DNA from: Sacculina carcini
Taxonomy: Eukaryota > Arthropoda > Thecostraca > Sacculinidae
Direction of reading: 5' to 3'
Length of the DNA: 64,000 nt
Assembly: GCA_916048095.2 (NCBI GenBank)
Contig: OU696576.1
Coordinates: forward strand, 10,145,988-10,209,987
Positions 1 to 60,049 of this stretch are shown here, one piece after another. A program made the translations under genes and the position numbers. The notes under the pieces were generated by a model. It searched no databases. It saw only the letters and a program-made list of their open reading frames with translations, and was not told where the DNA came from. Each line of letters starts with the position of its first letter. Position 1 is the stretch's first letter.

Positions 1-140
1 CTGCCATTATATTGATATGTGTCTGCTTGTGACGTTGACAATGGGCGCTCTCATCAAGCTCATCTTTCTTCATACATTCAGTTGCCTCAACCTGTGGCAG
101 ATCAAGTGAATGAACATGTGTGTGTGCTTGTGTGTATCAG

Positions 141-56061
<55,921 letters not shown>

Positions 56062-57228: not shown

Positions 57229-60049
57229 TCGCTTCTATGTTATGCTCTACATTGAAAAGATTCGGAGAATATTCAACTTTCACAACCCACTCTGTGTGGA
57301 TCGCAAATTTAAATTTGGTGTTTATATATTTGTGTGTTGCTGGCGTACTCCTCACAAAAGCGAAGCCGGTAAAATGCCTTTTTCCGATGTATTCAACATC
57401 CTTTTGTCTTTTTGGGATACGCACGTTCACGTACGTGAATTGTCAACGCAAACACTATTTAGGTGCATACACATGCATCCAGATAGTTTTGACATTGTGC
57501 CCATGCGTGGGTTGCTATCAATCGGTATGCATGCATTCAAAGATATAAGGAAGCACTCTGTCATTTTTCAAGTTCATTTATTGAGTTCCTACAGGTGTGC
57601 AGGTTTTACGTAATATTAAGTTATTCGAGGTTATTTTGCTCCCTTATGAGGCCGTCTCGTGTATGATGAATGTAGGCAGCATAATGGAGCAACTGTACCC
57701 GACGACTTCACGACACACGTGTTACGTAATTGTGCGCAAAATAGCTGAGCCGAGTCTTGTCGGCACTGTAATACGGGAAATTCACCACCGTGAAAATTCT
57801 CGTATAACTTGTGTATATCTTCAATTCCACGTTTATACCCATTTCTTCATCGTGCCACATATATTTGGTCAGGTTGTGCAGCATTTGTGTTGTACTCTCA
57901 AGCATCCTCAGTCAACGTGTAATTTAATGAAAGTTCATACCGAATTCAACGACAACAGCAACTAAAATTTGGTGTTTTATGCTGTTGTTTCATGGCAATG
58001 TGCGATTGCGTCTACATCGTGCGTCTAATTGATCAGCTGCATACAACTCAAATTGATCCACCGCGGACAGGAATACTTGAATACTTGTATAAGTGGCAGC
58101 TGGGTAGAGTGGCCAATAGTGAAATTTTGGAATTTTTCAAAATTATAGTTATTCTACTCAATTTTTTAGTCTGTTTTATTGTGGTAGCGTGCGGATGTGT
58201 TTTGCTGCTGCCCAGTTCATTACATTTATTAGATTTATTTGAGTATTTCTGTAGTGACAGAGTTGGTTTTTGATGGCCTGCTAGTAGCATTTATTTGCAG
58301 CAGGCGTGTGCCATCTCGTTCCCGGAAGTGTGCAGATTTGGCCGCTGGCGCTCGCGAAGATTCAACCATTTTGATTAAAAATTTCCCGTCAAACTGCTTT
58401 AATAAACTGATTAAACAATCTTTTTAGCGAAAATTCAGTGCTGGAATTTCCTTTGTGCCCTCAGCGGATTAAATTGAATTATGTTTTACGATTGTTTTTT
58501 CGAATAACATACATACGAAAAATATCGGGAGAACGTGATGTTGATGCTGATGATGCTACGTGATGCTGGCTTCGACAGTGCTATATAAATGTGGTGCTCG
58601 GAGAGATATGTGAACTGAGATGATGTGTGACTACATGCGCGAAATGGTCGAACTCGGCCGAAGCGCTTGAAGACAACAACAGGAGAACGAGCCTCGACAC
58701 ATGTAGGCTATGAGACTTAGACCGATGAGTCAGATAATTGTGCAGTTAGCGGGGACACAGGAATGGTTCAAAACCATTTTGAATAACAATGCTGCAAATC
58801 ATGTGTAATCATCATGCAAATCAATCATTTTTCCATCGCCATCACGACAGCATCAGCAGCAGCACGCTAAATGAGAATGCTGTCCTCCAGGAGCCAAGTG
58901 CCGAAACTGCAAGCGTGATCTTTACATCGACCTGGCGCGGAGATATCAATTGGAGCCACTAGCGGTGGAAAGTTCTGCAGTGCTCGGAAGAGCCTTCCTC
59001 AGCAACATCAGCCGACTCACTAATGAACCACGGAAATCATGTTGGCTGTGTCAGCGCATCGGTCTAGTGGTGGTTAGAAGGAATGCGGCCGCCATGTCAT
59101 AATTATATATATATACTGTTTACTTTTTTAATTATTATTGAGTGTGTTTTGTAGAAAACAAAAAGTAAAAAGCTGTGTCTATATTAACGGACGGGCTCGC
59201 GTCAGCACCTCTGCCTCACGCGCGCCTACAAGACGTCACAACACGACCAGACCACGAACACGACTCCCACAACACGATACATGCACCGTCCATACGCGAA
59301 CACACACGCAGGCCCAGTTCAAACACCCGCATTTTCGACCAATCAGCGGCGAGCTGGTCACTTGCTCGCCGCCACGGGGCATGTACACTTGACACGCAAA
59401 ATCGCACAAAGTGTTACACAAACACAAGCACACTAAGACGTTCACGAACTCAGACACTATCTCTCACACACTCTTACCATACGCAATCACACATGTTTTG
59501 ACTGTGTATTATATGGTGTAAAATATGGTGTGGTGGAATATGGTGTAAAATAAACGTGCATTGTGTCGTAAAAAATAAGAACATAATGCACAAGTGTGCA
59601 CTCTTCACAAGTAATTAATAAGAACAAGTGTGTGTGTGTGTGTGCATGCTTGTATGTGTACGCAAGGAAGTAGTTTTGTGTGACCGCTGTCCTTCAGTTA
59701 GTGTGTTTGTTTGGAACAGGTAAGGTGAGTGTCTTTTGAACGATGATTCGATGTGTCAGTGAGGTTCTGTGCTCACTCTTGTTTGTTAATATTATTAATT
59801 ACAGGCAAATCCAGTAGCATGGAAAAGTGCAAGCACACTATTACCACCCTGCGGTGACCATATGTACCGGGAGCGTCCAAGGGATGAGAAAGAGAAATAG
59901 AGTTCGAAAAGTAAGGAATTCTATAGAGAGTTGGGAAACAAAATAATAGATATATAAAAAATTATCCGATGACAGAACCGGCGGAGCAGAATTTCATTGG
60001 GCGAATTCTACAATCCCACAGTCCCTGTCCACCCAGCAGAAAATGATGG

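Follow-up and report, generated by a model that had tools for sequence, protein, structure and literature searches.

Splice-linked orientation of CA and TG repeats in a twitchin gene of Sacculina carcini with U/G-rich 3' splice sites

INTRODUCTION

In a long muscle gene of Sacculina carcini, why do CA tracts lie just after 5' splice sites and TG tracts just before 3' splice sites on the sense strand? In animals, the 3' splice site is usually characterised as rich in U or in U and C (PMC10946897), and zebrafish introns of an (AC)n/(GT)n class were reportedly described by Lin et al. (Genome Res., 2016). In such zebrafish introns, an AC-type repeat follows the 5' splice site and a GT-type repeat comes before the 3' splice site, and the two arms pair, draw the splice sites together and take the place of U2AF2, according to the parts of PMC6093180 and PMC9198270 drawn on here. 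A preliminary description of the Sacculina locus had listed twelve CA tracts after donors and twelve TG tracts before acceptors. Here, the pattern was analysed in the window (the whole 64,000-nucleotide stretch, C8:10145988-10209987 of genome G000, which has 264.4 Mb in 43 contigs), in the 20 kb upstream of it and in four myosin loci.

RESULTS AND DISCUSSION

Gene model of the window

The + strand of the window carries the C-terminal part of a twitchin gene, with Ig and FN3 repeats, a kinase and C-terminal Ig domains. Hidden Markov models seeded from the window's own frames marked 62 FN3 and 38 Ig segments, on the + strand without exception, and a Pfam scan of eight exons returned fn3, I-set or Pkinase in every one. 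The best PDB match of the kinase exon was twitchin 1kob (E = 2.6e-68, 232.6 bits), which we take to be an Aplysia protein; the top titin chain scored 110.7 bits.

The gene was modelled by dynamic programming from codon use, Ig/FN3 matches, donor positions -3 to +6 and acceptor positions -3 and +1. With a weak exon at 4878-5063 removed, the model runs from 141 to 56061 on the + strand, where it ends in a stop, and comprises 101 exons and 100 complete introns. The splice sites of twitchin are predictions from DNA alone. Tracts were not scored as splice signals and could enter the model only through codon scores, and all 24 splice sites (12 donors and 12 acceptors) named in the preliminary description were present in this model. 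A gene finder without domain help, trained on the same exons, recovered 91 of 100 window exons exactly, together with 95 donors and 95 acceptors.

The gene also contains minisatellites. A 36-bp minisatellite at 1206-1724 (14.9 copies) lies within a single open frame, 1075-1896; its unit comprises the end of exon 1099-1228, the donor site of that exon and a TTTCAG, which yields many equivalent donor copies in tandem. Homogeneous intronic minisatellites occur at 14896-15286, 15819-16417, 34771-34961 and 53672-54062, with units of 20, 59, 47 and 29 bp, respectively, and 88-98% matches.

CA and TG tracts at the ends of twitchin introns

Tracts were counted at one uniform tract score of at least 12 and within a distance limit of 60 nt; all those described here are on the + strand. 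After donors, CA tracts lie at 2083-2110 (20 nt past donor 2063), 3552-3705 (58 nt past donor 3494), 12848-12887 (13 nt past donor 12835), 30253-30291 (9 nt past donor 30244), 36093-36113 (15 nt past donor 36078) and 55444-55529 (16 nt past donor 55428). Two CA tracts at 15530-15635 begin 9 nt past donor 15521, and a 384-nt CA tract at 37710-38093 starts 14 nt past donor 37696. CA-rich arrays occupy 39131-39722, beginning 10 nt past donor 39121; 47503-48110, beginning 9 nt past donor 47494; and 50583-50853, 9 nt past donor 50574. A short imperfect CA stretch at 34655-34670, 27 nt past donor 34628, is under the score threshold. The placement of all twelve CA starts 5-55 nt past a donor, as originally described, was borne out.

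Before acceptors, TG tracts lie at 19592-19609 (40 nt short of acceptor 19649), 21718-21729 (2 nt short of acceptor 21731), 25253-25272 (8 nt short of acceptor 25280), 26142-26164 (9 nt short of acceptor 26173), 28222-28238 (24 nt short of acceptor 28262), 36793-36815 (7 nt short of acceptor 36822), 42287-42307 (20 nt short of acceptor 42327), 46593-46613 (10 nt short of acceptor 46623) and 55252-55307 (6 nt short of acceptor 55313). A tract at 35091-35102, 13 nt short of acceptor 35115, is new relative to the preliminary description. An imperfect TG run at 117-135, before acceptor 140, is under the score threshold, and its intron is cut by the window edge. Two further sets are not close: the TG tracts at 35534-35670 end 126 nt short of acceptor 35796, and the tract at 52462-52585 ends 109 nt short of acceptor 52694. 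Of the twelve TG starts originally placed before acceptors, ten lie 18-63 nt away, and the other two, 35545 and 52460, lie at 251 and 234 nt. The count used below leaves out CA 34655 and TG 120, which are under the score, adds TG 35091-35102 and drops TG 59628-59644, which is outside the gene.

Of the 100 complete window introns, 11 had a CA tract no more than 60 nt from the 5' splice site and none a TG tract there; at the same limit from the 3' splice site, 10 had TG and none had CA. When introns were tabulated by the intron end nearest to their tract, the counts were 11 CA and 0 TG at the 5' splice site against 1 CA and 13 TG at the 3' splice site (Fisher P = 2.7e-6). All tracts were also shifted circularly in intron-only coordinates. 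CA after donors then had a mean of 4.2 against 11 observed (P = 0.0004), and TG before acceptors a mean of 2.6 against 10 (P = 0.0004). The reversed placements were absent, with expected means of 2.6 for TG after donors (P = 0.058) and 4.2 for CA before acceptors (P = 0.014). The sum for the right polarity was 21 against a mean of 6.8 (P = 0.0002). Pure runs gave the same picture: at four or more units, 14 CA and 1 TG at the 5' side and 13 TG and 0 CA at the 3' side; at three or more units, 15 CA and 4 TG at the 5' side and 25 TG and 2 CA at the 3' side.

When orientation was ignored, 21 of 43 tracts lay within 60 nt of an intron end (P = 0.014 with placement in the own intron, P = 0.07 with placement in any intron). 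Orientation is the stronger part of the signal than mere closeness to splice sites. The polarity at twitchin intron ends is real, non-random and splice-linked, in agreement with what had first been suggested for this locus.

U/G-rich acceptors with and without tracts

The acceptors of the window are unusual in composition irrespective of the repeats. At positions -4 to -20, they contain T 0.464, G 0.285, A 0.142 and C 0.109, against T 0.341, G 0.189, A 0.285 and C 0.185 in mid-intron. Acceptors of introns with no tract near the splice site resemble the rest (C 0.112, G 0.281). G exceeds C in 87 of the 100 acceptors, and in 66 of the 75 whose intron has no tract at all. Short runs follow the same course in the tract-free window introns: TGTG occurs 26.7 times per kb in the last 45 nt, 10.5 times in the middle and 9.4 times in the first part, and CACA 8.2 times per kb in the first part, 5.3 in the middle and 1.8 in the last. 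C is modestly raised after donors, at 0.25 in +9 to +18 against 0.18 in mid-intron. The TG side reflects a broader trait, absent from the preliminary description: acceptors are U/G-rich and C-poor, tract or not.

The extent of this signal was followed in 95 tract-free introns from the window and the upstream stretch. T+G amounts to 0.67 in -50 to -4 against 0.56 in mid-intron, and the raised G reaches to about -23. AG is depleted in the same interval (observed/expected 0.55 against 0.80 in mid-intron), as before a canonical acceptor. The composition departs from that of a canonical polypyrimidine tract: T is enriched, but G is up and C is down relative to mid-intron. A search for a branch-point motif gave nothing clear.

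In the portions of a survey of intron 3' ends cited here, pyrimidines are over-represented in every species surveyed, and while human and sea urchin show a rise of both C and T, the remaining species show one of T only; AG depletion before the acceptor is likewise known from other eukaryotes (PMC10946897, section 3.6). The Sacculina acceptors share with the polypyrimidine tract of that account a T-rich, AG-depleted stretch before the acceptor AG. They differ from it in that T and G rise together, whereas C drops under its mid-intron level (PMC10946897). A literature search over titles and abstracts of open-licence papers found no report of an animal whose 3' splice sites generally carry a U/G-rich tract, which is weak evidence of absence.

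The short runs of the tract-free introns are biased in the same direction as the long tracts, and in the sampled loci CA/TG predominates among dinucleotide repeats. Both points would suit a neutral origin, in which repeats arose by slippage from strand-biased intron ends and kept the orientation of their seed, with no later selection on the repeat. However, the seed bias on the donor side is small (CACA 8.2 against 5.3 per kb in mid-intron) beside 11 CA and 0 TG tracts in twitchin. In addition, a neutral origin by itself leaves unexplained the TG tracts at 13 of 24 myosin acceptors described below, and we consider it rather unlikely.

A further possibility is regulated splicing. hnRNP L binds CA RNA, and CA tracts could recruit hnRNP L-type proteins and UG tracts TDP-43/CELF-type proteins, which would govern the use of alternative exons in this very large muscle gene. 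Introns with a tract near a splice site are longer than the others (medians of 612 for CA, 486 for TG and 239 for the remainder), which is favourable to this reading. A precedent is given by the (TG)m(T)n repeat at the acceptor of CFTR intron 8: the UG-rich RNA ahead of the exon 9 acceptor is a binding site for TDP-43 and alters inclusion, and a long TG represses that one exon, as stated in the part of PMC12171016 cited here. A TG repeat also stands directly upstream here, within 60 nt of the acceptor in 10 of 100 window introns and at 13 of 24 myosin acceptors. In contrast to CFTR, a large proportion of acceptors here have TG or U/G tracts ahead of them, in several genes encoding long open proteins. 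The UG bias is found at 87 of 100 window acceptors rather than at a small subset, and CA introns do not have significantly weaker donors (P = 0.52), both of which argue against regulated splicing; it is an unlikely explanation.

The comparison of donors also led us to reject the idea that CA tracts offset weak donors. Avoidance of decoy donors was likewise rejected for the donor half, with GT at an observed/expected ratio of 1.13 over the 44 nt that open the tract-free introns and of 1.11 in the middle.

Recurrence in the upstream stretch and in myosin loci

The 20 kb upstream of the window carry on the gene, in a chain of 32 exons that includes two window exons. The first part of this chain is without domain support, and of the seven TG tracts in the stretch, one falls outside its predicted introns. 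At the 60-nt limit from splice sites, there were one CA tract after a donor, two TG tracts before acceptors and none in the reversed orientation. G exceeded C in 26 of 30 upstream acceptors.

Four myosin-head loci on four contigs were taken from 14 clusters with at least two myosin matches; they were picked on exon density while their sequence was still unseen. Exons were fixed by their Pfam places, and predicted exons that could not be so placed were excluded. A 29-nt "exon" in the table (L027 1679-1707) is a probable artefact and was retained. A TG tract lay within 60 nt of 13 of 24 acceptors, where about 1.3 would be expected from tract density (37 TG tracts in 40 kb; binomial P = 7e-11). 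A CA tract lay near one of the 24, and that acceptor has both: at acceptor 2867 of L026, the CA tract is 15 nt before and the TG tract farther, at 51 nt, and the acceptor is counted among the 13. The base composition again favoured G over C (0.37 against 0.09), with G in excess at 20 of 24 acceptors. With two TG and no CA tracts in the upstream stretch, and 13 TG against one CA among the 24 acceptors in myosin, the TG-before-acceptor half of the pattern recurs.

The donor side of the myosin loci was different, with CA at 2 of 25 donors and TG at 2 of 25, and the 2x2 polarity table for these loci alone was not significant (P = 0.11). The two exceptions are TG tracts 11 nt after donors L026 2581 and L025 4691 (reverse complement). 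The preliminary description had seen no long TG tract just after a donor and no long CA tract just before an acceptor; this absence held in twitchin, with 0 and 0, but not in myosin, with TG at those two donors and CA at one acceptor. Overall, the rule is strong and recurrent on the acceptor side; on the donor side, it is strong in twitchin and unproven at other loci.

In L026 (2408-7380), near-duplicate myosin exons are adjacent to each other, with the HMM part 237-290 matched twice and the part around 375-436 twice. From their sequence, these are possibly mutually exclusive exons.

Genome-wide counts and random regions

Motifs next to tracts were also counted over the whole genome; these counts are lower bounds for repeats, are confounded by degenerate tract ends and probably include many tracts outside genes. 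TTTCAG beside (TG)6 was found 227 times downstream (backwards control, 80) against 535 times upstream (control, 226). CAG beside TG tracts was found 9,045 times downstream (backwards control, 4,687) against 12,137 times upstream (control, 10,913), and CAG after CA tracts 31,167 times against 31,412 in the backwards control. The donor motif GTRAGT occurred 475 times before CA and 5,799 times before TG, but these counts are unusable because degenerate TG arrays themselves generate GTGAGT. The genome-wide motif counts lend no support to the reading of U/G-rich acceptors and are not favourable to it. What speaks for this reading was read from the DNA of five loci for muscle or motor proteins, namely twitchin and the four myosins.

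Sixteen random 10-kb regions, inspected by eye, contained for the most part retroelement-like frames and genes with no introns; multi-exon genes were few. Single-frame genes resembling Rad51, kinesin and P450 (by eye) were seen at L011 1714-2781 (+), L012 2059-3171 (+) and L006 8478-9809 (reverse complement), and a full myosin head by Pfam stands in a single uninterrupted frame at C7:1241414-1243426. Such single-frame conserved genes are possibly retrocopies, while twitchin keeps 100 introns. Elsewhere, uninterrupted frames of roughly 1,500-2,900 aa each contain several tandem protein-kinase domains at a spacing of about 1,230-1,390 bp. These frames are clustered, at C20:3.26-3.46 Mb, C24:7.69-7.78 Mb, C31:16-87 kb, C15:7.16-7.31 Mb, C35:6.99-7.15 Mb and other places.

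Pairing of the two repeats and the U2AF2 copies

The polarity equals that of the zebrafish class (PMC6093180, in the passages cited above), and the repeats could in principle bridge introns in the same manner, with (AC)n after a 5' splice site pairing with (GT)n before a 3' splice site, either inside one intron or over an intervening exon. A few places are candidates for such pairing. The window intron 34628-35115 has the short imperfect CA stretch of 34655 at its start and the (TG)6 of 35091-35102 near its end, a pair that is sub-threshold. Exon 55314-55427, with TG before it (55252) and CA after it (55444), is the sole exon of the window with a tract no more than 60 nt away on each side. In the upstream stretch, one intron of 30 has both units (14731-15186 in the coordinates of the joined stretch L022/L023), with CA 30 nt after the donor and TG 245 nt before the acceptor.

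Against bridging, the two units occur together in none of the 25 tract-bearing window introns, and both lie within 60 nt of the splice sites in none of the 100. This absence is weak by itself, as zero co-occurrence between 11 CA and 13 TG introns has a chance probability of 0.20, and the duplex test therefore carries the weight. Over 100 introns, the mean rank of the own-intron duplex was 0.517 (P = 0.55) and that of the across-exon duplex 0.526 (P = 0.37). The earlier proposal that the complementary arms could pair across an intron or exon is not supported by these ranks. In comparison with the zebrafish introns, the sense-strand polarity is the same; there, however, both arms are in one intron and pair, whereas here they lie in different window introns with no preferential pairing, and in this invertebrate gene the acceptors are U/G-rich even without a repeat. 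Moreover, the genome encodes two U2AF2 copies that have RRM1, RRM2 and UHM, which also speaks against bridging. Taken with the duplex ranks, bridging is highly improbable.

The U2AF2 family search of the genome gave 31 matches, of which two were above the cut-off (412 and 421 bits), and an intron-split copy could score below it. The two are uninterrupted frames that form an inverted pair at C26:1032223-1036658 (L028 and L029), and the best structure matches of both, over the RRM1-RRM2 and UHM regions, are to U2AF65, with 6tr0 at the top. Before the last 110 residues, the copies are identical at 193 of 305 aligned residues; in the last 110, the UHM end, they are identical at 110 of 110. A 383-bp stretch is 98.7% identical, and the sequences suggest gene conversion between the copies. 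The copies differ, for example, in RRLF against RRLY and KNYAF against KNFAF, sites that we take to be RNP motifs. As the two copies have divergent RNA-binding halves, a U2AF2-based mechanism for U/G acceptors is, judged from these frames, possible.

A parallel is offered by the tunicate Fritillaria, in which, according to the part of PMC13326754 cited here, duplication of U2AF1/U2AF2 accompanies altered 3' splice-site recognition. A duplicated U2AF2 with one divergent copy and unusual 3' splice sites are common to both. In Fritillaria, the terminal AG changes, whereas here the AG is kept and the upstream tract has changed, as seen at the level of sequence (PMC13326754).

A proposed selective filter on repeat orientation

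The reading that we favour, with a probability of roughly 0.6, is that U/G-rich 3' splice sites, together with splicing selection on repeat orientation, account for the polarity. The signal upstream of the 3' splice site would be a U/G-rich, C-poor tract of roughly 20-25 nt that replaces the U/C-rich polypyrimidine tract. (UG)n repeats would be the extreme form of this signal, born from it and expanding in place, and their expansion would be tolerated because it keeps or improves acceptor recognition and brings no AG inside. A repeat in the CA orientation before an acceptor would destroy the U/G signal and be removed by selection. After a donor, a UG run would act as a misplaced acceptor signal, so that mostly CA-oriented repeats would persist there, in a stretch that is already slightly C-rich. 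The polarity would then be the outcome of a selective filter on repeat orientation rather than a pairing device. We infer that selection acts and that U/G tracts are bound by U2AF in this animal; the trait may reach further across the genome. The donor side is the weakest step, given TG after 2 of 25 myosin donors.

A bolder version goes further: a U/G ("polyketo") tract that the duplicated, RRM-diverged U2AF2 reads would have taken the place of the polypyrimidine tract, a (UG)n repeat would be a ready-made 3' splice site, and repeat orientation would mark intron polarity. We hold this version to be improbable at present.

The best-known case of UG repeats beside an acceptor is CFTR exon 9, whose splicing they hinder (PMC12171016, in the part cited here). 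If the favoured reading of U/G-rich acceptors with selection on orientation is true, filtering by orientation would give a simple account of AC/GT polarity that needs no RNA bridging, and would serve as a control for the zebrafish class. A genome with U/G acceptors in its muscle genes would then offer a natural experiment on how far the code of 3' splice sites is able to shift and on the changes in U2AF2 that go with such a shift.
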